This document shows positions 5,939-25,713 of a DNA stretch of 38,680 bases, piece after piece. Where the stretch lies: positions 1 through 38,680 of the IMG/VR virus record IMGVR_UViG_3300040810_000230. One strand, 5' to 3'. The DNA is from a virus. Position 1 is the first letter of the stretch, and each line of letters opens with the position of its first letter. The position numbers and the translations under genes were made by a program. A model generated the notes under the pieces. That model made no database searches, was not told where the DNA came from, and saw nothing but the letters and a program-made list of their open reading frames with translations.

Positions 5939-7522
5939 GTGGCAATATTACAAATATCCCGCATACAACATAGGCGTGGAACTTCCGATAACTTACCGCA
6001 ACTATCAGCGGCTGAACTAGGCTGGTCAGTAGACAATAGAAAACTATACATTGGTAATGGTACGCTTGAAGAAGGTGCACCTATACTGGGTAACACAGAG
6101 ATCCTTACAGAGTTTAGTGACTTACTAAACACAAGCCAAGCATACACTTACAAAGGCGAAGCCGCTGGCTATACAATAACAACAGGTACAAGTTCTAGTT
6201 CTCCAATTGAAAGAACACTACAACGTAAGTTTGATGACTTTGTTAATGTCAGAGATTTTGGTGCTGTGGGCGATGGAACCACAGACGACACTGCCGCTAT
6301 TAACAGAGCGTTATTTCAGTTATACTGTAGAGAAGTAAACGAGGAAATTCGCAGAGCTTTATACTTTCCAGCAGGCGTCTATAAAATTACAGGCGATGTT
6401 GTTAAGATTCCAACATACGCTAAAATTATTGGTGAAGGTGCAGACAGTACGTGTTTTAAACAGACTGATTCAGGCGAAGACTATGTGTTCAAAACTGCTG
6501 ATAGTTTACAGCAAATAGATGCTAGTATTGCAACAAACGCCGCTACTAGACCACAGTTTATCGAAGTATCAGGATGTACATTTTGGAACAGTACAACAAA
6601 TCACGTAGGATTAATTACATCTGCACAGCATGTGCATTTTGATGACGTTAAGTTTAAAGGAAATTTAACCTTACCTACCACAGTAACTGATGCTAAAGCA
6701 AACATACAAGTTGAGTCGACAGCAGTTTTAGTTACAGAGCACATCACATTTGATAACTGTTATTTTACAGAAAACACGTTCGCTATCGAGATAGATTATA
6801 ACTGTAGAAATGTTGTAGTTCAAAATAGTTATTTTGACGAGTTATATAAAGCCGTTAAACTAGGAGAAAGTTTAACAGGTATCTCACCACAGGACGAAGG
6901 ACCACGTGGATTTAAAGTTACAGGCAGTTATTTTGATAGAGTTGCCAATTCAGCAATACATACATACTCAGCCGTAAAACATGTAGTATCTGCGTATAAC
7001 TACTTTTACGAAGTTGGTAACGACTACAACGGCTCAGGCAACGAATCTGCTCCAGTTATATACTATGTTGCTGGCGGAAACTTTAGTATTGGTGATGCGT
7101 TCGAACGTAATGACACAGACGATTTGAATCAACCAAGATTAAGCATTGGCAACGTTTCAAGTTACGGTATGATCGCCGACAACAGCGTACAGTATGGTGC
7201 GCATAGACAAGAAGCAGGCAAGTCAGTAACTTTACTTGATAACACAACTACTACAACAACAGGTATTACTCTTGCTGACAGCAAATATACACACGGTGCT
7301 ATTATAGATTATAGCATTGTACGTGGCACAACATACAGAACAGGAACACTAAGAATAGGTCACGGTACAAGTGTTGGTTATAGTGATGACTTCTCAGAAG
7401 ACTCATCAACGGGTGTAACACTAACAGTTACATTTGCTACCAACACAAGTACTATTAACTATGCAACAACATCAACCGGCAGTAATGCCTTAATGAAATA
7501 TTCAATTAGATACTTGTATTAA
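5939..7522 (+). CDS. Tail spike/fibre with Mtd-like N-terminus and beta-helix
   Basis: This 527-residue protein starts with a short domain (about 1-60) resembling the N-terminus of the major tropism determinant: Arg-Ile-Gln-His-Arg-Arg-Gly-Thr, then Leu-Ser-Ala-Ala-Glu-Leu-Gly-Trp and Lys-Leu-Tyr-Ile-Gly-Asn-Gly. This fold commonly anchors receptor-binding proteins to the tail. The pectate-lyase-type beta-helix opening Asp-Phe-Gly-Ala-Val-Gly-Asp-Gly-Thr-Thr-Asp-Asp-Thr follows at about 108-120, then repeated strand-turn units (Phe-Asp-Asn-Cys-Tyr-Phe, Val-Val-Gln-Asn-Ser-Tyr-Phe, Phe-Lys-Val-Thr-Gly-Ser-Tyr-Phe). It probably binds or cleaves a host surface polysaccharide. Catalytic residues cannot be identified by eye. 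GTG start with AAGGA at 5926-5930 and an upstream late promoter. Confidence 0.85.
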   Translation: MAILQISRIQHRRGTSDNLPQLSAAELGWSVDNRKLYIGNGTLEEGAPILGNTEILTEFSDLLNTSQAYTYKGEAAGYTITTGTSSSSPIERTLQRKFDDFVNVRDFGAVGDGTTDDTAAINRALFQLYCREVNEEIRRALYFPAGVYKITGDVVKIPTYAKIIGEGADSTCFKQTDSGEDYVFKTADSLQQIDASIATNAATRPQFIEVSGCTFWNSTTNHVGLITSAQHVHFDDVKFKGNLTLPTTVTDAKANIQVESTAVLVTEHITFDNCYFTENTFAIEIDYNCRNVVVQNSYFDELYKAVKLGESLTGISPQDEGPRGFKVTGSYFDRVANSAIHTYSAVKHVVSAYNYFYEVGNDYNGSGNESAPVIYYVAGGNFSIGDAFERNDTDDLNQPRLSIGNVSSYGMIADNSVQYGAHRQEAGKSVTLLDNTTTTTTGITLADSKYTHGAIIDYSIVRGTTYRTGTLRIGHGTSVGYSDDFSEDSSTGVTLTVTFATNTSTINYATTSTGSNALMKYSIRYLY

Positions 7523-16013: not shown

Positions 16014-17333
16014 ATGATTTTTGGATATTTTATATTACTTGTTGCACTGTCCATTAGTGGTATAGCCGCTTTTTATAGCATTATTGGACTTATTGCGATT
16101 TTTGCAGCCGCCGCAATGCCTGTTATTGTTATGGGCGGAGCATTAGAAATAGGCAAAATTGCAACTACTGTTTGGCTACATCACAACTGGCAACGAATGC
16201 CACTAGCATTTAAAGTTTACCTAATACCAGCAGTTGCTATTCTTATGTTTGTTACTAGTATGGGTATTTTTGGTTTTTTATCAAAAGCACATATTGAGCA
16301 GACTGCATTAAGCGATGAGCAACGTGCAGAAGTAAGTCAGTTAGCAAGTAAAAATACCAGAAGCGAAGCAAAAATTGCTAGGTGGAATGCAGAGCTTGGT
16401 AGACTTAGCAAAGGTGAAGATCAGCGTGTAGATAATCTGGTAGACCGGGACCAAGACGCACTTAAAGAAGTGCGGGAACAGATTAATCAAGAAAAAGCAA
16501 ATGCTCGTGCTGATGCTGAAAAACAAGTAGCACTACAGCAAGAGCGTTTGCAACAAGCCGCAGATCGTAAAGACAAAGACATAGCGGCGGCACAAAAGCG
16601 TAAAGAACAAGATGTAGCACAAGTTCAAGAAAGGTTTAAGAACTCATTCAGTAAAGGAAAAATGGACGAAGCCATTGCTGAAATTAATAAGATTGAATTG
16701 GAAGCAGTACAAACAGCCAAGAACAATGAGCTTTCAGTTGCCAGTGCCGCACAACGTGAAATTAAAAACATCAACGCAACTCTTAATGAGCGTCTCGCAG
16801 GCATTGACACCAAGTATGCAAGTAGTTTAGAGTCTATTAATTCTAGAATACAGGAGTTGCGTAATGCCGCTAATACTAAAACAGATGATATAGACGATAG
16901 AATAGAGGAACTTGAAAACCTAGTTGACTTAGAGCAATTAGAAATAGATAAAATTAATGAAGAGATTGCAGTATACGAGAAAGAATACCGCAAACTAGAA
17001 GCAGAAGTAGGTCCAATCAAGTACGTAGCCGCACTAATTTACGGTGACAATCCTGACGTTAACATGTTAGAACGTGCAGTACGTTGGGTTATTATATTAC
17101 TAGTTGTAGTGTTTGATCCACTAGCACTTACACTCATCCTTGCCGCTACTAAACAATTCCAATGGGCCAAAGAGGAGCGAGAGAATTTAGAGAACGACTC
17201 GCCCAAAAAAAAGAACATAGAACCTGAAGTACATGTTAAAGAAGTTTACGTTGAAGCCAACGTAGACACTTCGATACCTGCAGATGTTGCAGAATTAGAA
17301 AACTCAGTAGAAAAGAAAATTAAAGGAGCATAA
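16014..17333 (+). CDS. Multi-pass membrane protein with long central coiled coil
   Basis: The 439-residue protein has hydrophobic segments at about 2-22, 24-44 and 62-84 (ending Gly-Ile-Phe-Gly-Phe-Leu). A long charged coiled coil follows at about 95-330 (Arg-Ala-Asp-Ala-Glu-Lys-Gln-Val-Ala-Leu-Gln-Gln-Glu-Arg type heptads). A last membrane segment lies at about 352-376 (Trp-Val-Ile-Ile-Leu-Leu-Val-Val-Val), then a charged tail. Similar membrane coiled-coil proteins are recurrent in marine T4-like phages, function unknown to me. It would reside in the host inner membrane, possibly organising a surface or blocking superinfection (inference). The two small genes downstream appear to be part of the same unit. 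Confidence 0.75.
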   Translation: MIFGYFILLVALSISGIAAFYSIIGLIAIFAAAAMPVIVMGGALEIGKIATTVWLHHNWQRMPLAFKVYLIPAVAILMFVTSMGIFGFLSKAHIEQTALSDEQRAEVSQLASKNTRSEAKIARWNAELGRLSKGEDQRVDNLVDRDQDALKEVREQINQEKANARADAEKQVALQQERLQQAADRKDKDIAAAQKRKEQDVAQVQERFKNSFSKGKMDEAIAEINKIELEAVQTAKNNELSVASAAQREIKNINATLNERLAGIDTKYASSLESINSRIQELRNAANTKTDDIDDRIEELENLVDLEQLEIDKINEEIAVYEKEYRKLEAEVGPIKYVAALIYGDNPDVNMLERAVRWVIILLVVVFDPLALTLILAATKQFQWAKEERENLENDSPKKKNIEPEVHVKEVYVEANVDTSIPADVAELENSVEKKIKGA

Positions 17334-17522: not shown

Positions 17523-18066
17523 GCATCAGGAAACCGTAGAGAGCATTTGGCGCAAGTATCAAATAGCTCTACAGCGACTGGATAAGGCTTTAGACGAATT
17601 AGAACGTAAGCCTAAGGAAGTCGTTGTTGAAAAGATAGTCGAAGTACCCGTAGAAGTAGAGAAGATAGTTGAAGTGCCTGTAGAAGTAGAGAAGGTTGTT
17701 GAGAAAGAGATCACTAAAGCAGAATACTTTAGATTAGTAAAAGAAGAAGAACTTGGTCTACAGGCAGATAATGCAAGTCACAACGCAAGCAAAACTGGTT
17801 TTGGTATAAAGTTTCCTGACAATCCCAACAAAGGCGACATGTTTTTACGTGTTGATAGTAAGCCAACTAAGTTGTTCAAATATGACGGCAATAAATGGTT
17901 TGAAGTTGACAAAGACAAGACAGACACGTACACTTACGATGAAGATTATTTAAAACATTTAATCGATAGGATTAATAGAGGAGATTATACTCTAGAAGAA
18001 CTTACAATAACAGAACAAGAAGAACTAAAGCGTTATCTAAAAAAGGAAACAGTACTTGGTAAGTGA
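17515..18066 (+). CDS. Helical protein with PVEVEK repeats, 183 aa
   Basis: The N-terminal helix (Ser-Ile-Trp-Arg-Lys-Tyr-Gln-x-x-Leu-Gln-Arg-Leu-x-x-Ala-Leu-Asp-Glu) copies the motif of the 61-residue gene upstream. A rigid Val/Glu/Pro repeat follows (Val-Glu-Val-Pro-Val-Glu-Val-Glu-Lys, about 40-65), encoded by a 30-base duplication. A folded C-terminal part contains Gly-Asp-Met-Phe-Leu-Arg-Val-Asp and Lys-Leu-Phe-Lys-Tyr-Asp-Gly-Asn-Lys-Trp-Phe-Glu-Val. That last pattern is reminiscent of phage fibre or peptidase-inhibitor strands with a Trp-Phe core. Val-Glu-Val-Pro repeats often form extended spacers in surface or cytoskeletal proteins. Overlaps both neighbours by 8-11 bases. Confidence 0.7.
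   Translation: MHKHQETVESIWRKYQIALQRLDKALDELERKPKEVVVEKIVEVPVEVEKIVEVPVEVEKVVEKEITKAEYFRLVKEEELGLQADNASHNASKTGFGIKFPDNPNKGDMFLRVDSKPTKLFKYDGNKWFEVDKDKTDTYTYDEDYLKHLIDRINRGDYTLEELTITEQEELKRYLKKETVLGK
17641..17700 (+). repeat. 30-base tandem repeat, two copies, in coding sequence
   Basis: Units 17641-17670 and 17671-17700 are near identical and encode the Glu-Val-Pro-Val-Glu-Val-Glu-Lys spacer. Partial matches flank both sides, so copy number may vary between relatives. Confidence 0.8.
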
Positions 18067-18388
18067 GATCAACATTATATCAGCACCAGACAGTCTAAAC
18101 AGAGACAGTAAAAAGTTTCTACTGTTTGATATAAGCATGGACGAGCTTATGGAAGTTAAAGATACATTTACTAACTTTGACATGAATATTGACTTCTACA
18201 TTTACGGAAGTTATAGTAATGACATAAAATGGTTAAGTAAAGTAGCAGAGACTGTTGACTACATAGTAATTAATAGTACACAATTAACAGATCATATAGA
18301 TTTAAAACAAGAATTACTAGAACACAAGAATGCAGTTAGATCAGGCGACAAAACTGTATTAGAACTTATTTTAGAAAGATGTCAATGA
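18056..18388 (+). CDS. Hypothetical phage protein, 110 aa
   Basis: This small soluble alpha/beta protein has strand-type segments Lys-Phe-Leu-Leu-Phe-Asp-Ile and Asp-Tyr-Ile-Val-Ile-Asn-Ser-Thr separated by helices, a pattern compatible with a Rossmann-like half domain. No catalytic motif or named family is evident. A TTG start overlapping the upstream gene by 11 bases is the only reasonable start before conserved-looking sequence. The 3' end overlaps the clpX start region (18379-18388), so ClpX may be translationally coupled to this gene. Confidence 0.65.
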   Translation: MVSEINIISAPDSLNRDSKKFLLFDISMDELMEVKDTFTNFDMNIDFYIYGSYSNDIKWLSKVAETVDYIVINSTQLTDHIDLKQELLEHKNAVRSGDKTVLELILERCQ

Positions 18389-19614
18389 ATACTAAGGACA
18401 AGCCAGAAGTAGTTTGTAACTTCTGCGGTAAAGGTAAGGCAGAAGTAGAGACATTAATTGTTAGTAATGATGTTGGAATATGCGACGAATGTACAGAGTT
18501 GTGTACTAACATTCTAGCAAAAGAAAAAGAGAAGTCGGGCAAAACATCGACTAGCCCTAAAATTAAAGAAGCACTAGATCCGTTAGCAATTAAAGAACAT
18601 TTAGACGAACATATTATAGGGCAAGACGAAGCCAAGACTGCTATTGCAGTTGCAGTAGTTAATCACTACAAGCGAGTATTCAACAATACAAACATTAAAC
18701 TAGACAAGAGTAACTTATTATTATTTGGTCCTACTGGATCTGGTAAAACACTACTAGCAAAAACAATAGCAGATTACCTCAACGTACCTTTTGTTATTAC
18801 AGATGCTACAAGTCTAACAGAAGCAGGTTATGTAGGAGAAGATGTTGAGTCTGTAATAGAACGTTTACTGGCAGAAGCAAACTTTGATGTTGAGAAATGC
18901 GAACAAGGTATAGTGTTTATCGACGAAATAGACAAAATTGCACGTAAGGGCGAGTCCAGTACTACTAGCAAAGACGTGTCAGGAGAGGGTGTACAGCAAT
19001 CTCTACTCAAACTAGTAGAAGGCACCAAGTGTAAGATAGCAGTTAAAGCCAGCAAGAAGATGGTTGTAAGCGACAGTGTCGAGATCGACACAGGTAACAT
19101 ATTGTTCATAGCAGGCGGTGCGTTTGTAGATTTAAATAAGATAATTCAAAAGAGAATAAATGCTAATGCAATCGGTTTTGGTAGTAAACTTAAAAATGGT
19201 GAAACTGATAGAAGTAAAATAATACACGAGGACTTTGTTAAGTTTGGTATGATTCCAGAGTTTACGGGCAGATTTCCTGTCATTGTGCATACAAATGACT
19301 TGACATTAGATGATTATGTCGCTATACTTAAGGAACCTAAAAACAACTTGTTGGCACAAATGAAGTTCTACTTTACAGTAGACAACATTAAGTTAAACTT
19401 TGACAGTGGCTCTTTAAGAGCTATTGCAGAGGAAGCAGTTAAACTTAAAGTTGGTGCTCGAGGACTAAAGGCTGTGATGGAAAAAGTATTACAGCCGTAT
19501 ATGTTTGAAATAACAGAGTTGAAAGCAAAACAGGCAAAGAGTATTACTATTACAGAAAAAGTTATTAAGGAAAATAAAAGGGCAACAATAAAATATGAGA
19601 TACAGAAATCGTAA
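18379..19614 (+). CDS. clpX: ClpX-type AAA+ unfoldase
   Basis: The 411-residue protein is full-length ClpX. The N-terminal zinc-binding domain has Cys13-x2-Cys16 and Cys35-x2-Cys38. Walker A is Gly-Pro-Thr-Gly-Ser-Gly-Lys-Thr at 117-124 and Walker B includes Asp182-Glu183. The Gly150-Tyr-Val-Gly pore loop that grips substrate is present, as are the arginine-finger region Phe-Thr-Gly-Arg-Phe and the sensor-2 block Gly-Ala-Arg-Gly-Leu. The ClpP-docking loop Ile265-Gly-Phe267 is intact, so it could dock a ClpP, probably the host's since none is seen here. The start could also be the ATG at 18385 (ATGA overlap). It sits with bS21, Hsp20 and ClpS, suggesting redirected host proteolysis. Confidence 0.95.
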   Translation: MSMNTKDKPEVVCNFCGKGKAEVETLIVSNDVGICDECTELCTNILAKEKEKSGKTSTSPKIKEALDPLAIKEHLDEHIIGQDEAKTAIAVAVVNHYKRVFNNTNIKLDKSNLLLFGPTGSGKTLLAKTIADYLNVPFVITDATSLTEAGYVGEDVESVIERLLAEANFDVEKCEQGIVFIDEIDKIARKGESSTTSKDVSGEGVQQSLLKLVEGTKCKIAVKASKKMVVSDSVEIDTGNILFIAGGAFVDLNKIIQKRINANAIGFGSKLKNGETDRSKIIHEDFVKFGMIPEFTGRFPVIVHTNDLTLDDYVAILKEPKNNLLAQMKFYFTVDNIKLNFDSGSLRAIAEEAVKLKVGARGLKAVMEKVLQPYMFEITELKAKQAKSITITEKVIKENKRATIKYEIQKS

Positions 19615-19855
19615 TATTGACCTAAGCGGCTCACAAGGCGTTACAGGAACTACAGTATTTGTTAAAGACGGTAATGTAGATAAGGCACTTCGTAAACTTA
19701 AAAAGAAGATACAGGATAATGGTAAACTCATGGAACTACAAAAGAAGCAAGAGTATATCAAACCAACAACAGCACGTAAGCAAAAGAAAGCTCAAGCCAG
19801 AAAGCGATGGCTTAAAAAACTTGCTTCGGACAGATTACCAGAAAAGAAATTTTGA
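19595..19855 (+). CDS. rpsU: Ribosomal protein bS21 homologue
   Basis: The 86-residue basic protein carries the bS21 core: Val-Phe-Val-Lys-Asp-Gly-Asn-Val-Asp-Lys-Ala-Leu-Arg-Lys-Leu-Lys, then Lys-Pro-Thr-Thr-Ala-Arg-Lys-Gln-Lys-Lys-Ala and a basic C-terminus. bS21 sits on the 30S platform near the anti-Shine-Dalgarno sequence and affects initiation. Phage-borne bS21 is documented in marine phages, including pelagiphages, and may replace the host copy to favour phage mRNAs. The gene overlaps clpX by 20 bases. The N-terminal 15 residues are an extension compared with typical bS21; an internal start is possible. Confidence 0.93.
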   Translation: MRYRNRNIDLSGSQGVTGTTVFVKDGNVDKALRKLKKKIQDNGKLMELQKKQEYIKPTTARKQKKAQARKRWLKKLASDRLPEKKF

Positions 19856-19882
19856 CTTTTGTACAGAGTTCCTGTATAAATA
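19852..19882 (+). promoter_or_regulatory. Promoter before hsp20 (sigma70-type, also fits late motif)
   Basis: TTGACT (19852-19857), 17 bases, TATAAA (19875-19880). The -10 extends to TATAAATA (19875-19882), an exact T4-type late promoter. It could therefore be read by both host and phage late sigma factors, giving Hsp20 expression throughout infection. The -35 overlaps the end of the bS21 gene. Confidence 0.8.
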
Positions 19883-19887
19883 ATAGT

Positions 19888-19910
19888 GTAAGATGCCTAA
19901 TGGGTCTTAC
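19888..19910 (+). other. Hairpin at the 5' end of the hsp20 leader
   Basis: GTAAGA (19888-19893) pairs with TCTTAC (19905-19910), with an inner GCC/GGG pairing. It begins about where transcription should start, so it would cap the mRNA 5' end. It lies 19 bases upstream of the AAGGAG ribosome binding site and does not obviously occlude it. It more likely stabilises the mRNA than acts as a thermometer. Confidence 0.5.
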
Positions 19911-19942
19911 AGTCATTAACTTGCTAAAAAGGAGATAAAGAC

Positions 19943-20374
19943 ATGACAAACTATAAACTTACCACATACGATTTACCTACAATTTCCAGATTCGGAATTG
20001 GCTTTGATAGACTTTTTGATGAACTTAACCGTTCAATGGAAGTTGGACAACAAGGCTACCCACCATACAACGTAGTAAAGCATAGTGACGAAGCATACAC
20101 TATTGAAGTTGCTGTGGCTGGATTTGGAGAGAATGACCTTAATGTCACAGTACATGAGGGCAAACTTCACATTGAAGGGGTAAAAGAAGACAAAGTGGAG
20201 CAAGATTATGTTTATCGTGGTCTTTCCAGCCGAAACTTTACAAGAACATTTAACTTAGCAGAACATGTTGAAGTTAAAAATGTAACTGTAGAGCAAGGCG
20301 TAATGCGTATTTCACTAGAACGTGAAGTACCAGAGGAAATGAAACCACAAAAACTTGCTATCACATTTAAGTAA
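19943..20374 (+). CDS. Small heat shock protein Hsp20 (IbpA-like)
   Basis: The 143-residue protein has the alpha-crystallin domain at about 37-127. The N-terminal arm includes Gly-Phe-Asp-Arg-Leu-Phe-Asp-Glu-Leu, as in IbpA/HspA. Domain blocks are Pro-Pro-Tyr-Asn-Val, Tyr-Thr-Ile-Glu-Val-Ala-Val-Ala-Gly-Phe, Leu-His-Ile-Glu-Gly and Gly-Val-Met-Arg-Ile-Ser-Leu. The C-terminal Leu-Ala-Ile tripeptide serves as the Ile-x-Ile-type oligomerisation tail. It holds unfolding proteins, host or virion, in a soluble state. Hsp20 genes are near-universal in T4-like cyanophages. It has its own promoter, leader hairpin and an AAGGAG ribosome binding site eight bases before the ATG. Confidence 0.95.
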   Translation: MTNYKLTTYDLPTISRFGIGFDRLFDELNRSMEVGQQGYPPYNVVKHSDEAYTIEVAVAGFGENDLNVTVHEGKLHIEGVKEDKVEQDYVYRGLSSRNFTRTFNLAEHVEVKNVTVEQGVMRISLEREVPEEMKPQKLAITFK

Positions 20375-20384
20375 ACACAAACAA

Positions 20385-20403
20385 GGGGGACTTTGTGTCC
20401 CCC
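20385..20403 (+). terminator. GC-rich hairpin between hsp20 and clpS (possible terminator)
   Basis: GGGGGAC (20385-20391) pairs perfectly with GTCCCCC (20397-20403) around a 5-base loop. It is the most GC-rich stem in an AT-rich intergenic region. No T run follows, so it may be a partial terminator, a transcript-end stabiliser or a processing site that lowers ClpS relative to Hsp20. Confidence 0.55.
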
Positions 20404-20421
20404 AACTTATAGAAAGAAACC

Positions 20422-20730
20422 ATGGCACAGACTAAAGAAATACCAGCAACACAACCTAAAGTAAATGAGAAGGTCAAAGAGCCTTCGCTGTATAATGTAA
20501 TCTATCTCAACGACGACGTAACTACTGTTGATTTTGTTATATCTACTTTAATTGCTGTGTTTCAATATGACCATGTTAGATCCGCTGAAATAACTCAAAA
20601 AATACATGAATTAGGAAGTGCAGTTGTAGCAACTTATCCCTATGAAATAGCAGAACAAAAAGGCGTGGAAGTAACATTACTTGCACGTAATCATAATTTC
20701 CCACTACAAGTAAAACTTGAAGCAGAATAA
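20422..20730 (+). CDS. clpS: ClpS-type protease adaptor
   Basis: The 102-residue protein matches ClpS after a short flexible N-terminal extension (about 1-20) that in E. coli ClpS regulates delivery. The N-degron pocket residues are kept: Asn30-Asp31-Asp32 (E. coli Asn34-Asp35-Asp36) in Val-Ile-Tyr-Leu-Asn-Asp-Asp, and His62 (E. coli His66) in Lys-Ile-His-Glu-Leu-Gly. The gatekeeper corresponding to E. coli Met40 appears to be Val36. ClpS delivers N-end-rule substrates to ClpA, not ClpX, and no ClpA is seen here, so it probably acts on the host ClpAP machine. It follows hsp20 and a GC-rich hairpin and is 3 bases before an exonuclease gene. Confidence 0.9.
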   Translation: MAQTKEIPATQPKVNEKVKEPSLYNVIYLNDDVTTVDFVISTLIAVFQYDHVRSAEITQKIHELGSAVVATYPYEIAEQKGVEVTLLARNHNFPLQVKLEAE

Positions 20731-20733
20731 CAC

Positions 20734-21261
20734 ATGGATGTAATGATCGACATAGAGACTCTGGCGACGCCGCCCGACTCTGTTATACTCACAATAGGTG
20801 CATTAAAGTTTGATCCTAAATCTAATGCTGAAGGCGGCAGTATCTATCATAGGCTTGATGTAGATAGTCAACTTAAAATGGGTAGGCGTGTCGACGAGGA
20901 GACTATAGCATGGTGGGGCAGACAAACATTAGAAGTAAGGGAAGACGCACTAGGCACAACTAACAGACAACCATTAGATGTAGTATTCGATAGCATATCA
21001 CGTTTTATGGTAGGCGTAGACAATATATGGGCCCAAGGACCTGTGTTTGACATTGCTCTATTAGAAAATATGCTACGCCAGTTGAAACGCCCTGTGCCCT
21101 GGCAATTCTGGCAAATTAGAGATTCGAGAACATTGTTTAAATTAGTCAATGAGGATCCTAGACCAAAGAATTTTGAAGGTGCGCACAATGCACTGACAGA
21201 TTGTTATTATCAAGCCAAAGCAGTACAAAAAGTTTTTAGACTACTAGGGCTCAATCGTTAA
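20734..21261 (+). CDS. DEDDh 3'-5' exoribonuclease (Rv2179c-like)
   Basis: The 175-residue protein has the DEDDh exonuclease motifs: Asp6-Ile-Glu8-Thr (Exo I), Phe-Asp106-Ile (Exo II), and His151-Asn-Ala-Leu-Thr-Asp156 (Exo III with catalytic His). The short single-domain form with the Trp-rich middle (Ile-Ala-Trp-Trp-Gly-Arg-Gln) resembles the Rv2179c-like 3'-5' exoribonuclease family found in many phages. It would trim or degrade RNA, or possibly DNA, 3' ends. Its position after bS21, Hsp20 and ClpS fits a role in reshaping host gene expression (inference). Confidence 0.85.
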   Translation: MDVMIDIETLATPPDSVILTIGALKFDPKSNAEGGSIYHRLDVDSQLKMGRRVDEETIAWWGRQTLEVREDALGTTNRQPLDVVFDSISRFMVGVDNIWAQGPVFDIALLENMLRQLKRPVPWQFWQIRDSRTLFKLVNEDPRPKNFEGAHNALTDCYYQAKAVQKVFRLLGLNR

Positions 21262-21286: not shown

Positions 21287-21877
21287 ATGACTCAGATACA
21301 AAAGAAATTTCTAGTAGGTCTGATAATAGCATTTTTTATAGCATCACTTGTGTTTTTTGGTATTTTGTTTAAAGCAGTGTTTGCTCAAGAGTACACAGAA
21401 GACAACCCATTAATAATGGAAGATGGTGTAGAACTTACCGGAGATATATTAGATATTACTCCACACGAAACTAGCAGATTTGGACAACTAGAAAACGATC
21501 CAACAGGATGGAAAGAAGTAGGTCACGTTGATAACAGACGTTTGTATATAAATGTAAACAAGATAGAAAAGGCTTCTATATTTAGACATGTATATGCAAT
21601 GTTTGAATTTACGGATGGCGCAAAAATTGTTCCAGGACACGCTACAGGAGTATTGCGAGTAGTAAGCGAAGCAACAATAGATTGTTCAAGTGGACTAACA
21701 CAACCACTTGTTGATTACTACGTCGACAAAGATTGGGTTATCAGAACACAGACAGTTTACCAAAACGGCCAAGGAAGAAGTTTTGCAAGACGAGAAGGCA
21801 GTATTGCTTGGGCGTTAAAGGAAGTATCATGCAATGGTGCTAAAATAGAAGATGTAAGGATAGGAAAGACTTCATGA
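21287..21877 (+). CDS. Exported protein with adhesin-E-like domain
   Basis: The 196-residue protein has an N-terminal hydrophobic segment (about 9-32) ending Val-Phe-Ala-Gln-Glu, a likely signal peptide or membrane anchor. The mature part resembles small surface-adhesin E-type domains: Trp-Lys-Glu-Val, Arg-Leu-Tyr-Ile-Asn-Val-Asn-Lys-Ile-Glu, His-Val-Tyr-Ala-Met-Phe-Glu-Phe and a conserved-style Ser-x-Ala-Thr-Ile-Asp-Cys, with a second Cys near the end that could form a disulfide. It should act in the periplasm or on the surface of the infected cell. The family match is by pattern and moderate. AGGAA ribosome binding site; ATGA overlap with the next gene. Confidence 0.65.
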   Translation: MTQIQKKFLVGLIIAFFIASLVFFGILFKAVFAQEYTEDNPLIMEDGVELTGDILDITPHETSRFGQLENDPTGWKEVGHVDNRRLYINVNKIEKASIFRHVYAMFEFTDGAKIVPGHATGVLRVVSEATIDCSSGLTQPLVDYYVDKDWVIRTQTVYQNGQGRSFARREGSIAWALKEVSCNGAKIEDVRIGKTS

Positions 21878-22194
21878 ATGTAATATTTGATAAGCAAGCG
21901 GCAGAACAGTTGGCAGAAAAATATACTATACTACCGCTACCCCCAATTACACAAACAGAAGGCGATAAAACTGTTACTGTTGAGCCTCATGTTGTAATTG
22001 ATATGGAAAAAGTGCCTTTACAAGAGGTTACTTCGTTGGACCAATGGACTGACTTACACAAAGAACTAGTCAGGAACCATATTAAAAAAGACTATAACTT
22101 TTGCGAACAAGCGATAGACCATTTAATGGGCAAGTTTAAAGGTGAGCTAGATTCTTATTATCAGCACATATTAAATGAAGTTAACGATAAATAA
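21874..22194 (+). CDS. Hypothetical phage protein, 106 aa
   Basis: This is a small soluble protein with a Pro-rich early segment (Leu-Pro-Leu-Pro-Pro-Ile-Thr) and a helical C-terminal half (Leu-His-Lys-Glu-Leu-Val-Arg-Asn-His-Ile-Lys-Lys). No family is recognised. Its ATG overlaps the upstream stop, and its own stop overlaps a GATAAATA late promoter motif. Confidence 0.65.
   Translation: MNVIFDKQAAEQLAEKYTILPLPPITQTEGDKTVTVEPHVVIDMEKVPLQEVTSLDQWTDLHKELVRNHIKKDYNFCEQAIDHLMGKFKGELDSYYQHILNEVNDK
22186..22193 (+). promoter_or_regulatory. Putative T4-type late promoter (GATAAATA)
   Basis: GATAAATA lies at the end of the upstream gene, 28 bases before the ATG at 22222, and fits NATAAATA. Confidence 0.6.
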
Positions 22195-22221
22195 TATTAT
22201 TACAATTATGGAGCATTTAGA

Positions 22222-22830
22222 ATGGCAACTAAATTAAATTTAGGAACAAATATTTGGACTAATGAGGCCGCAGTACCTACAGCCACTGGTGCGTTCGCTG
22301 ACCAGTATATGACAGGTGGTAATGAAGGGATAATGAATAGTATAATTACTAATTCTTCTACAATTTCTTCTACCTTACACGCTGATTTAATATCAAAACT
22401 TACATCTAACAGTCTTACGATTTCTAACATTCGTGCAGTTAAAGTTTCAGCAGGGGAAAATGGTTGCATTACTAATATGACTTATACAGGTGGCGACCAC
22501 CAACATTGCATTGCTATAGCGGTTGGTGCTGACATTAGTATAACTTCGCACGACATGACTGGCAAAACAGCAATCGGGGTATCGGACTTTACAGATGCTG
22601 AATTGGTGCATTATACAAATGCAGGCGATGCTGATACACTTGATAACACACTAAGATCTAATGAAGTTACAGCATTAGAAACTTTTACAAATACTGCTTT
22701 TATTTTAGATGTGTGTACGCCAATTAGTTATCGTAGCAGTGGCGCCGCTGGTTGGGTTATATTTGCTGGATTATCAGACACAACAGAAGCAGGGTTACAA
22801 ACAGCATTAACAGATTACGTTATTTCATAA
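22222..22830 (+). CDS. Tandem paralogue A, 202 aa, possible virion or surface protein
   Basis: This is a Thr/Ser-rich, beta-type protein with no signal peptide. It shares a conserved core with the next gene: His-Asp-(Met/Val)-x-x-x-x-x-x-Gly-Val-x-Asp, His-Tyr-x-Asn-x-Gly-Asp-x-Asp-Thr, Leu-Glu-Thr-(Phe/Tyr)-Thr-(Asn/Asp)-Thr-Ala-Phe-Ile and a C-terminal Leu-Ser-Asp block. The His and Asp spacing (Gly-Gly-Asp-His-Gln-His-Cys then His-Asp) could bind metal. A late promoter precedes it and a 2OG-oxygenase-like gene follows in the same unit. No named family is recognised. Confidence 0.7.
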   Translation: MATKLNLGTNIWTNEAAVPTATGAFADQYMTGGNEGIMNSIITNSSTISSTLHADLISKLTSNSLTISNIRAVKVSAGENGCITNMTYTGGDHQHCIAIAVGADISITSHDMTGKTAIGVSDFTDAELVHYTNAGDADTLDNTLRSNEVTALETFTNTAFILDVCTPISYRSSGAAGWVIFAGLSDTTEAGLQTALTDYVIS

Positions 22831-23448
22831 GTGAATTTTTTAAAGTTAGATTTTGGTATATCAAATTATTTTGATCAAGATTTTAAATTAACTTGGCAAG
22901 ATGGACCGCACGGTTATCAAACTTTGTACTCTGGTAATACTGGTAATACAGGATTAAACAACCGTGTTGTTACCGACTCTTCAAAATTTTTAAACTATTT
23001 CACATCTAACTTTATTTCTACGTTAAACGAAACTAGGTTAGAACCAGTGACAGTGTCTTCTTATAAGTTGAACGGTGTACACGATGGGAAACTTTGTAGA
23101 CATACTGTAGAAGGCGAAGAGGTGTGTTGTTTATTCGTTTTACATGGCAGTGCTAGTATTAGTTGTAACACACACGACGTATCTAACATCAACGAGTATG
23201 GTGTGCCTGACGCAAACACTGTTTTATATCATTATATTAATCCTGGAGACCAAGACACTGAGGGAAATTTTTTATCGTGTTCACAAGTTCCAATATTAGA
23301 AACTTATACGGACACTGCATTTATTGCGGATCAGTCAGTTGCACATTCTTTTACAAACTTAGAAGGCACAGGGTACGTTACTATCGTAGTTTTTAGTTTA
23401 TCAGACCGTAAGTCGTTAGAATCATCTTTTTCAAAATACATAATATGA
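22831..23448 (+). CDS. Tandem paralogue B, 205 aa
   Basis: This paralogue of the upstream gene keeps the His-Asp, His-Tyr-Ile-Asn-Pro-Gly-Asp-Gln-Asp-Thr and Leu-Glu-Thr-Tyr-Thr-Asp-Thr-Ala-Phe-Ile-Ala-Asp blocks. It starts differently, with Leu-Asp-Phe-Gly-Ile-Ser-Asn-Tyr-Phe and aromatic residues. The GTG start at 22831 follows the upstream stop without a gap, so it depends on coupling. Divergence is high, so the duplication is old. Function is unknown. It overlaps the 2OG-oxygenase-like gene by 4 bases. Confidence 0.7.
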   Translation: MNFLKLDFGISNYFDQDFKLTWQDGPHGYQTLYSGNTGNTGLNNRVVTDSSKFLNYFTSNFISTLNETRLEPVTVSSYKLNGVHDGKLCRHTVEGEEVCCLFVLHGSASISCNTHDVSNINEYGVPDANTVLYHYINPGDQDTEGNFLSCSQVPILETYTDTAFIADQSVAHSFTNLEGTGYVTIVVFSLSDRKSLESSFSKYII

Positions 23449-23960
23449 CGCACATTGAAAAATTAAACTTACCAAAAATACCGGACACAGTAATAACCTC
23501 TTTACTGGAGCAAAATCCTGACTTAGGAAACTATAGTTATGTTTGCGAGCCAGCGTATAACGGTATAGCTCACTTTTCTTCTTATACTATTGATGTGTCT
23601 GCATTAAGTTGGTTTAAAGAAAATAACTTAGACAGTTATTTTTGGAACATACAAACTTTGAAAGACGGTACAAACTTAAATGCTCACAGAGATGATAGAC
23701 GCACACATGTTATAATGTACATAATAGATCCAGGTGGAGAAAATGTAAAAACTTGTTTTTATCATAAATTACTGGATAAAGAATACGAACCTATAAAACC
23801 TATCCCCAAAGAGGAACTAGAATTAGTATACGAAGAAGTACTGGAAGCCGGTAACTGGTATAAACTTTCAGTGCAAGACATTCATAGCGTTGAAAACTTA
23901 CAATCTACTAGATTGTGTTTAACTAGACAACTACCCGACGTTCCTTTAGATTTACTTTAA
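23445..23960 (+). CDS. 2OG-Fe(II) oxygenase-like protein, 171 aa
   Basis: The C-terminal half carries the facial triad of a double-stranded beta-helix oxygenase: His81-Arg-Asp83 in Leu-Asn-Ala-His-Arg-Asp-Asp, distal His147 in Gln-Asp-Ile-His-Ser-Val-Glu, and Arg156 about nine residues later, the usual 2-oxoglutarate-binding position. Such small enzymes hydroxylate proteins or small molecules in the cytoplasm and are frequent in marine phages. The two tandem paralogues upstream, on the same transcript, are possible substrates (inference). It converges with the reverse-strand gene, overlapping it by 9 bases. Confidence 0.75.
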   Translation: MTHIEKLNLPKIPDTVITSLLEQNPDLGNYSYVCEPAYNGIAHFSSYTIDVSALSWFKENNLDSYFWNIQTLKDGTNLNAHRDDRRTHVIMYIIDPGGENVKTCFYHKLLDKEYEPIKPIPKEELELVYEEVLEAGNWYKLSVQDIHSVENLQSTRLCLTRQLPDVPLDLL

Positions 23961-25202
23961 AATTTTTCTTAATTTGCTCCCAAGAGTTCCTGGACTGGAA
24001 TAAACACTATTAGCAAATACACATCTTTGATTATTTGGAATATCACTAAATTTTTCGTATTGTAGATTTTTGTGATAAGAGTGAATTTTTGTCAACTGAT
24101 TAGACTCTGCTAATGCTAAATGAAAGTTATCAACTAATTCTTTCCAAGCAATTTCTTCTAAGTTGTTATAGAAGTGATTAAAGTTGTAATCCAGAGTTGG
24201 TAGAATTTCTTCGTACATTTCCTTTTTTTCTTTTTCCGACAAATTACATATCTTGTTTAACTGTCCTACAACTTTTAGTATTCTAATATTAGGGTCATAT
24301 TCCTCATCGTAACTTTCATCGATGACATTGTCGAATGTTTTAAATCCGTAACTTTTTAAATATTTTAATGCACCAGGAGTACTTAATACTAAAAATGGCT
24401 GCCTTGCAACAATAGGTTTGAATATTTTTTCAGTTAAGTGAACCGTCTTTTCATAAAAACATGTTTCACTTACTACATGCCAAAATGCACTCGTCCATAC
24501 AGAATATTCTGGTTCTGCACTAGAGTCATCTTCACTATATAATGATGTTTGTACCCTGTGACTAGTCTTTACTTGGCTACAAAAACTAATTATATCTTGT
24601 CTAGTTTTAGAATTTAAATGCATGTTGTCTAATTCTTCTGACCATTCATCTATATTATAAGATACTATTCCATCACCGAGTAGTCCCTGTTTGTATAATT
24701 GAGATAGAAATATCAGTCGATATATCCTAGGTCCTTTGTAAAGATTATTTAGATTTATATAACTTGCTCCTTGCCATATATTATTAACTTTAGGAGCGTA
24801 CTCAATGGATCTAAACCAATCTAAACTTGCAAAAGCATGATAAAAATAATACCATTTTGATAGTTTTAATTTTTTACACAAAGCGTCAACTTTTGGACTG
24901 TGTAATTCACTTGTAGCAAATATTCCACCGTCTATCCCAATGTAATCGTTATTAAATTCTTTTGTAAAAATATTGTACATGTTAGCGACCGTATTATGAT
25001 CGTACACTGGTTCTTGATCATAAAAGAATACATTTTGCAAATTAAACAAAACCTGATTAGTATTAAAGATATCAGTATTCATTGTACTGATATCTTTTAG
25101 GTTGTTACATTTTCCAAATTCGTACAAAAATGAGCCAGAAAGACTATTTGGGCGTAGGAAATTAGCATTTATAATGTTGTAAATGTTGTCTACATTAAAC
25201 AT
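23952..25202 (-). CDS. Glycosyltransferase-like protein (GT10-type C-terminal motif)
   Basis: This 416-residue soluble protein has the C-terminal block His-Leu-Thr-Glu-Lys-Ile-Phe-Lys-Pro, Gln-Pro-Phe-Leu-Val-Leu and Gly-Phe-Lys-Thr-Phe, then Asp-Glu-Ser-Tyr-Asp. This resembles the nucleotide-sugar domain of fucosyltransferase/exostosin-type enzymes. The same block occurs in the gene at 34812, so the two are distant paralogues. The upstream half differs, as expected for the acceptor domain. It is the only long reverse-strand gene inside the window and starts back to back with the curli-like module. It could modify host lipopolysaccharide or the secreted repeat proteins (inference). Confidence 0.7.
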   Translation of the reverse strand: MFNVDNIYNIINANFLRPNSLSGSFLYEFGKCNNLKDISTMNTDIFNTNQVLFNLQNVFFYDQEPVYDHNTVANMYNIFTKEFNNDYIGIDGGIFATSELHSPKVDALCKKLKLSKWYYFYHAFASLDWFRSIEYAPKVNNIWQGASYINLNNLYKGPRIYRLIFLSQLYKQGLLGDGIVSYNIDEWSEELDNMHLNSKTRQDIISFCSQVKTSHRVQTSLYSEDDSSAEPEYSVWTSAFWHVVSETCFYEKTVHLTEKIFKPIVARQPFLVLSTPGALKYLKSYGFKTFDNVIDESYDEEYDPNIRILKVVGQLNKICNLSEKEKKEMYEEILPTLDYNFNHFYNNLEEIAWKELVDNFHLALAESNQLTKIHSYHKNLQYEKFSDIPNNQRCVFANSVYSSPGTLGSKLRKILK

Positions 25203-25263
25203 GTATGTTTATGTCTTTTTTAACGAGTAAATACAAATATAGTAATAATTGAGGGAAGACTGA

Positions 25264-25713
25264 GTGAAATTCTTATTAACACTGATATTTATGGTGCCAG
25301 TACTAGTACTAGCAGATAATTTAACATTCAACTACAAAAACCCTGCCTTTAGCGGCATAGGGTATAGTGCCCACGTATTAACTATCGAGCAGTTGGAATC
25401 TAACCGTCGTAAAGACAATGAAAAAGCCGCAAAAGCACTACAGGACGAAGCAGACAGGGACTTGCGTTCTACTAATACATGGAAGTTTCAAAACAACTTA
25501 GAGTCTAGGATTTACAGTCAGCTGAGTAAGCAGATAAGTGATAGTTTATTTGGTGAAGGCTCAGCAGAGGACGCAGAGGGCGAAGTAACAACGCCATTTG
25601 GAGATACAGTAGCATGGTCTCGTATTAATGATGTTATAACTGTTACTGTGTCAGACAGCAACGGAGACGTTTTATCCACATTTTCTGTACCTGTAGGAGA
25701 TTTTGCTTTCTGA
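25264..25713 (+). CDS. csgF: Curli assembly factor CsgF homologue
   Basis: The 149-residue protein has a signal peptide ending Val-Leu-Ala (17) and a mature N-terminus Asp-Asn-Leu-Thr-Phe-Asn-Tyr-Lys-Asn-Pro-Ala-Phe-Ser-Gly. This closely follows E. coli CsgF (Thr-Phe-Gln-Phe-Arg-Asn-Pro-Asn-Phe-Gly-Gly), the peptide that inserts into the CsgG pore. A helical middle with Gln-Leu-Ser-Lys-Gln-Ile and a C-terminal strand region ending Thr-Val-Ser-Asp-Ser-Asn-Gly also fit. It tethers the curli fibre to CsgG at the cell surface. GTG start with GAGGGA ribosome binding site. Its stop overlaps the csgG start (TGATG), the same gene order as in E. coli csgFG. Confidence 0.9.
   Translation: MKFLLTLIFMVPVLVLADNLTFNYKNPAFSGIGYSAHVLTIEQLESNRRKDNEKAAKALQDEADRDLRSTNTWKFQNNLESRIYSQLSKQISDSLFGEGSAEDAEGEVTTPFGDTVAWSRINDVITVTVSDSNGDVLSTFSVPVGDFAF

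Follow-up and report, generated by a model that had tools for sequence, protein, structure and literature searches.

The stretch of viral DNA analysed here, which we refer to as the window, is a 38,680-base IMG/VR record (IMGVR_UViG_3300040810_000230) and represents a fragment of a much larger phage. It carries four neighbouring genes, all on the plus strand, that encode the unfoldase ClpX, the ribosomal protein bS21, the chaperone Hsp20 and the adaptor ClpS:

18379..19614, plus strand: ClpX, 411 amino acids, complete (NCBIfam and Pfam profiles, and alignment to E. coli ClpX)
19595..19855, plus strand: bS21, 86 amino acids (Pfam and TIGR00030), exact start codon uncertain
19943..20374, plus strand: Hsp20 small heat-shock chaperone, IbpA-like, 143 amino acids, below the IbpA equivalog cut-off
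20422..20730, plus strand: ClpS N-degron adaptor, 102 amino acids (Pfam profile PF02617)

A preliminary description of this DNA had placed four intact genes at these positions, which profile matches and open reading frames (ORFs) confirm, and had read them as a proteostasis and translation module, a reading that is supported. The window ClpX scores above the NCBIfam equivalog cut-offs (PRK05342, 500.8 versus 359 bits; TIGR00382, 456.7 versus 370.75 bits) and has an N-terminal C4 zinc domain (Pfam zf-C4_ClpX, 43.9 bits). Aligned to E. coli ClpX it keeps the zinc cysteines, Walker A (GPTGSGKT), Walker B, GYVG, the sensor and finger arginines and IGF; the profiles and the alignment thus agree with the earlier claim of a complete ClpX with zinc domain, GYVG pore loop and IGF loop. 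The frame of bS21 overlaps the 3' end of ClpX, and its product is over the cut-offs of Pfam PF01165 (58.3 bits) and TIGR00030 (55.4 bits, cut-off 28.95). Hsp20 (60.4 bits) and ClpS (84.8 bits) pass their Pfam cut-offs, and neither reaches the stricter NCBIfam equivalog cut-offs. Profile searches of the window matched neither ClpP (PF00574) nor Clp_N/ClpA (PF02861), as had also been claimed; since the window is a 38.7-kb fragment, little can be read into a gene missing from it.

When viral contigs were searched with the window ClpX, 24 loci were returned; an alignment-based search contributed the 80 best among 541 confirmed loci, picked by likeness to these ClpXs, a few of them on contigs already among the 24. 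The ORFs of these 104 loci were screened with profiles for bS21, Hsp20 and ClpS, and the loci were reduced to 67 distinct ones by removing those with less than 4 kb downstream and those with identical ClpXs. We found bS21 downstream of ClpX in 60 of the 67, Hsp20 in 63 and ClpS in 64; the order ClpX-bS21-Hsp20-ClpS is complete in 56, and the bS21 frame abuts or overlaps ClpX in 60. This order holds over ClpX identities down to about 45%, and its recurrence in dozens of divergent phages goes beyond chance. Of 80 bacterial ClpX loci, 74 have a neighbouring ClpP, and bS21, Hsp20 and ClpS are missing from all 80. As the phage loci were selected by ClpX likeness, the proportion of 56 in 67 describes this ClpX family and not all phage ClpXs; within the family the combination, which the preliminary description had called unusual, is the rule.

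In a quick tree the window ClpX falls within a phage-only clade of 42 rows (Shimodaira-Hasegawa-like approximate likelihood ratio test, 99), separate from the 34 bacterial rows. The cassette also occurs in another clade, of six rows, elsewhere in the tree, and the cultured phage PA5oct, considered below, sits on a long branch of unsure placement. Bacterial ClpX matches to the window do not pinpoint a host, being spread over many phyla at 44-50%. The sister lineages G062 (L576:8538-10451) and G063 have an ORF of about 635 amino acids after ClpX instead of bS21, and this ORF matches G033 at 72-73%.

The zinc cysteines and both arginines are present in all 84 phage ClpXs compared. The RKH loop, which bears on the substrate specificity of ClpX and lies outside the profile definition of the family, is non-standard in the window, where ASKKMV stands in the columns that read GGRKHP in E. 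coli. It is missing in 19 of the 84 and degenerate in all four ClpXs of the window lineage; we considered its loss as a sign of ClpP loss and rejected this, as loss is scattered among the ClpXs. Between the window and its near twin L001, ClpX shows 0.007 non-synonymous and 0.152 synonymous substitutions per site (dN and dS) and is under purifying selection.

In the window ClpS, NDD (N34, D35), H66, E79 and K84 are kept, and the pocket residue M40 is changed to V. We take N34, D35 and H66 to belong to the pocket and E79 and K84 to be the residues that contact ClpA; both of the latter are retained in 69 of 71 phage ClpSs, the remaining two having R for K. The pocket itself varies, with D36 changed to N in 51 of the 71 and M62 to T in most, and these changes, taken with the altered RKH loop, may hint, but do no more than hint, at a changed choice of substrates. 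Compared with L001 (12047-12355), the window ClpS (20422-20730) is a mosaic, about 75% identical at the nucleotide level in its 5' half and about 97% in its 3' half, while its near neighbours are mostly 92-100% identical. Positive selection on ClpS was rejected, as its divergence from L001 is that of the mosaic 5' half and dN/dS is below 1. Outside ClpS, identity between the window and L001 stays at about 97-99% as far as about 21.8 kb and then falls to background (window 21800-23900); this drop, just downstream of the block, is a sharp edge of exchange.

The closest large relative of the window is G002, a 289-kb contig that is colinear with it at 242.8-277.6 kb with about 76% nucleotide identity. 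G002 has neighbouring genes for DnaJ and a full-length ClpA (the latter at 23227-25512, with 40% to E. coli ClpA across 753 amino acids), and ClpS therefore has a phage partner in the window lineage. From the cassette records that reach 80 kb or more we chose 20, leaving out L305 and L355, which are also of that size; Clp_N/ClpA was found in 15 of the 20. A ClpP-docking loop of the IGF type is present in 74 of 74 untruncated phage ClpAs, the odd match L116 being left out; 26 phage ClpAs that apparently lacked the loop proved to be 25 cut by the end of the locus and L116 itself. The ClpA residues that presumably contact ClpS are also retained, E28 in at least 96 of 100 and E23 in 74 of 100.

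A ClpP-family gene occurs in 19 of the same 20 records, canonical (over 200 bits) in 17 of them. In other sets, ClpP passed the cut-off in 5 of 24 mostly short records, in 5 of 8 further short records, and in 9 of 20 in a group made up of 18 records chosen for ClpA together with the window and G002. Each of the 36 distinct phage ClpPs has an intact SHD triad. G048, G049, G051 and G054-G058 have a second, divergent member of the ClpP family (about 90-119 bits) 2-3 kb from the canonical ClpP, and the divergent gene stands alone in G050 and G059; because five distinct low scorers keep SHD, it is not a dead ClpR by the triad test.

The preliminary description had proposed searching beyond the window for a phage clpP or clpA. 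Such a search recovered ClpA in the colinear G002 and ClpP in sister lineages, and left ClpP unseen in the window lineage itself. The description had itself named a phage clpP or clpA elsewhere as evidence against its reading, and in relatives that evidence is present. In G002 the cassette is followed by two conserved genes and an ultraviolet (UV) endonuclease gene (287578-288693, named by eye from sequence), and the contig ends 377 bases past this gene, at 289,070. Six of the seven other lineages compared have ClpP about 1-6 kb past the UV endonuclease: at 1.5 kb in G062, 0.9 kb in G063, 5.6 kb in G065, 5.1 kb in G026, 4.1 kb in G030 and about 1.1 kb in G033. G062 and G063 are both of the closest sister ClpX lineages of the window. 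ClpP is thus probably unseen in G002 because the contig breaks before the syntenic position, and we rejected the face-value reading that G002 lacks it; synteny predicts that the window phage itself most likely encodes ClpP.

No sequence was found to read through the G002 break, which G004 shares (289,063-289,070). The exact end pattern matched G002, G004 and two other phages that share only short stretches; G025 extends the opposite end only; a search for a lineage-specific gene returned G002 and G004 only; and a UV-endonuclease scan returned other phages, with no extension past the break. Two stretches of G002 of about 200 bases each (288870-289070 and 220406-220618) are 99.5-100% identical to G044 (at 6682 and 5283), and one of them sits at the contig break. 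As the proteins shared by G002 and G044 are mostly far less alike, these stretches point to recent exchange.

Two features in the gaps around Hsp20 bear on how the four genes may be expressed:

19875..19882, plus strand: TATAAATA, T4-type late-promoter octamer ahead of Hsp20 (motif scan)
20385..20403, plus strand: intergenic hairpin in the gap between Hsp20 and ClpS (covariation across 7 sequences)

The octamer, which we take to be the T4 late-promoter consensus, occurs three times in the window, a total not above chance, and all three copies lie in gaps just upstream of genes, one of them ahead of Hsp20. In G002, 11 of 16 copies are so placed, against 9.2% expected; raw counts show no excess, and only placement departs from expectation. 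The octamer lies within 150 bases upstream of Hsp20 in 36 of 73 distinct loci (shuffled mean 1.5). Elsewhere it precedes ClpX in 0 of 84, ClpS in 2 of 72, ClpP in 0 of 60, DnaJ in 1 of 69 and ClpA in 8 of 72 (shuffled mean 2.2). Because the octamer precedes Hsp20 but no ClpX, ClpX-bS21 and Hsp20-ClpS look like two separate expression units. The hairpin has a consensus stem of eight pairs, five of which show two-sided changes over the seven sequences.

The cassette lies within a longer conserved block, to which the following genes also belong or adjoin:

16014..17333, plus strand: predicted membrane/coiled-coil protein heading the conserved block (nature judged by eye from sequence)
18056..18388, plus strand: small ORF, the last 10 bases of which overlap the start of ClpX
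20734..21261, plus strand: RNase T/Rv2179c-like 3'-5' exonuclease closing the conserved block (Pfam PF16473, 123.6 bits)

The protein that heads the block gave no match in a PHROG search, and nearly all related phages have a homologue of it ahead of the cassette. The small ORF had no match in Pfam, NCBIfam or PHROG; its slot holds weak homologues (27%) in relatives, even where ClpX is absent. Relatives carry the exonuclease in the matching slot.

Among cultured phages, the Pseudomonas jumbo phage PA5oct (Arenbergviridae) has ClpX, bS21, Hsp20 and ClpS in the same order as the window, with bS21 overlapping ClpX, and its complete genome encodes ClpX, ClpA, ClpP and ClpS, with DnaJ and ClpA next to each other as in G002. 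It differs in having two extra ORFs between bS21 and Hsp20, and an FtsH pair just downstream of ClpS followed by ClpP and, further on, DnaJ and ClpA; its ClpX is distant from that of the window (42%). MIJ3, Callisto, Paride and other kin of PA5oct have ClpX and ClpS matches at the spacing found in PA5oct, and the host is listed as P. aeruginosa PAO1 for several of them. Searching passages of the literature on PA5oct, MIJ3, Callisto and Paride, and of a jumbo-phage review from 2026, turned up no mention of Clp.

Other phages share parts of this arrangement. Agrobacterium phage Atu_ph07 is reported, in the accessible text of its description, to have ClpX, ClpA, ClpB, ClpP and ClpS, with ClpX placed by topoisomerase genes (PMC6102473); unlike in the window, the 806 bases examined downstream of its ClpX hold no bS21, Hsp20 or ClpS. 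Among 900 published bS21 phages, the available part of one study gives Hsp20 (n = 127) and two Clp protease pVOGs (n = 50 and 47) within ten genes of bS21 (Chen 2022, PMC9723584). The lake phages of that study, unlike the window, carry bS21 among capsid genes and on the opposite strand, and the same part of the paper describes no ordered ClpX-bS21-Hsp20-ClpS cassette (PMC9723584). Bacillus phage G also has a ClpX, but its gene adjoins ClpP, the bacterial arrangement, and in the tree it groups with bacterial ClpXs; it is therefore a separate acquisition. Salicola phage SCTP-2 has ClpX and ClpS two genes apart and ClpP elsewhere; it differs in having no bS21 or Hsp20 annotated between them and no Clp_N match. 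A jumbo-phage review notes, in the part available, ClpP, ClpS as an adaptor to host ClpAP, and ClpA/ClpX (PMC7824862), and the accessible text on a Sinorhizobium jumbo phage lists ClpX, Hsp20 and S21 apart from each other (PMC11242549). Our literature search, which most subscription papers lay outside, found no description of the ordered cassette; prior art is partial.

We consider it likely that this ClpX-bS21-Hsp20-ClpS cassette belongs to a Clp and chaperone system which a large lineage of jumbo phages supplies for itself, and the virus probably carries its own Clp machine rather than using that of its host. The genes, their order, the catalytic and docking motifs, the ClpA of the lineage, the ClpP of relatives and the placement of the octamer are all read directly from sequence. 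From them we infer activity, partners, timing and substrates, as well as a ClpP for the window phage. A phage-encoded ClpP would be fed by two unfoldases, the ClpX and the ClpA of the phage, and ClpS would be the adaptor for the phage's own ClpA, directing it to N-degron or aggregated substrates. Hsp20, together with the DnaJ encoded beside ClpA, would hold unfolding proteins. Hsp20 and ClpS may be turned on late from the T4-type promoter, during bulk synthesis of virion proteins, and would then pass misfolded or N-degron products to phage ClpA. ClpX and bS21 would form a separate coupled pair, made together without the late promoter, and the phage bS21 may swap into host ribosomes. The action of Hsp20, ClpS and ClpA on aggregates is known from work in E. 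coli. A more far-reaching version, which we put forward tentatively and think rather less likely to be true than false, is a complete second Clp system (ClpX, ClpA, ClpS, ClpP) beside that of the host, with its substrate choice rewritten through the changed ClpS pockets and, in some ClpXs, the loss of the RKH loop, and with a late Hsp20-ClpS arm for assembly by-products, tied to bS21 ribosomes such that protein synthesis and destruction would both come under viral rules.

Several observations weigh against a self-supplied system. Two of the cassette records of at least 80 kb have only the divergent ClpP-like gene, and in the 220-kb cassette record G061 neither ClpP nor ClpA was matched. Phage ClpPs differ from one another in the residues of the cleft that takes up the IGF loop, so docking to a cognate ClpP can only be presumed. 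G044, a relative without ClpX, is the one exception among the seven lineages, its ClpP lying about 30 kb past the UV endonuclease, and the place in G002 that matches this site holds no ClpP. G044 and G028 retain the flanks, bS21, Hsp20 and ClpS without ClpX, so the parts of the cassette are separable. Finally, PF00574 had no match in the window, G001-G005 or G025, all of which are fragments. This last result would suit a phage that relies on host peptidase. The preliminary description had proposed that phage ClpX docks host ClpP and ClpS redirects host ClpA, since the phage was thought to lack both partners; the ClpA of G002 and the ClpP and ClpA of PA5oct speak against this, and with the ClpP synteny they led us to set it aside as the leading explanation. 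An amended form, in which ClpP has been lost in the window lineage and phage ClpX and ClpA dock host ClpP and displace the host unfoldases, is in our view unlikely. The IGF loops retained on ClpX and ClpA and the degenerate RKH loop of the four window-lineage ClpXs are compatible with it, but RKH variants occur elsewhere too (the 19 of 84 above), both sister ClpX lineages have ClpP, and the ClpP-negative records are all fragments, the largest of which breaks where six of the seven other lineages have the gene.

A role without proteolysis is slightly less improbable, though still doubtful. Here ClpX and ClpA would remodel or disassemble proteins and Hsp20 would act as a holdase for virion assembly, proteolysis being incidental; such a role has been suggested in print for jumbo-phage ClpA/ClpX, and the late-promoter octamer at Hsp20 fits it. 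ClpP-docking loops and a triad-intact ClpP are nevertheless kept family-wide, and chaperones alone would need neither. That the four genes are independently acquired morons, adjacent by chance, seems to us very improbable. The parts are separable, and the Hsp20s of G002 and the window are 45% identical where the ClpXs are 87% identical, which indicates that single genes are exchanged; chance adjacency is contradicted, however, by the order found in 56 of 67 loci over such divergent ClpXs and again in PA5oct, and in none of the 80 bacterial ClpX loci.

ATP (adenosine triphosphate)-dependent proteolysis is usually viewed as something that phages suffer or redirect with small adaptors. If a self-supplied Clp and chaperone system is the right reading, a whole phage lineage would carry its own protein-turnover system, a view based on a fixed cassette of unfoldase and adaptor beside a ribosomal protein, with a second unfoldase and usually a peptidase elsewhere in the same genomes. 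The kin of PA5oct, with PAO1 listed as host for several, would make this proposal directly testable in culture.

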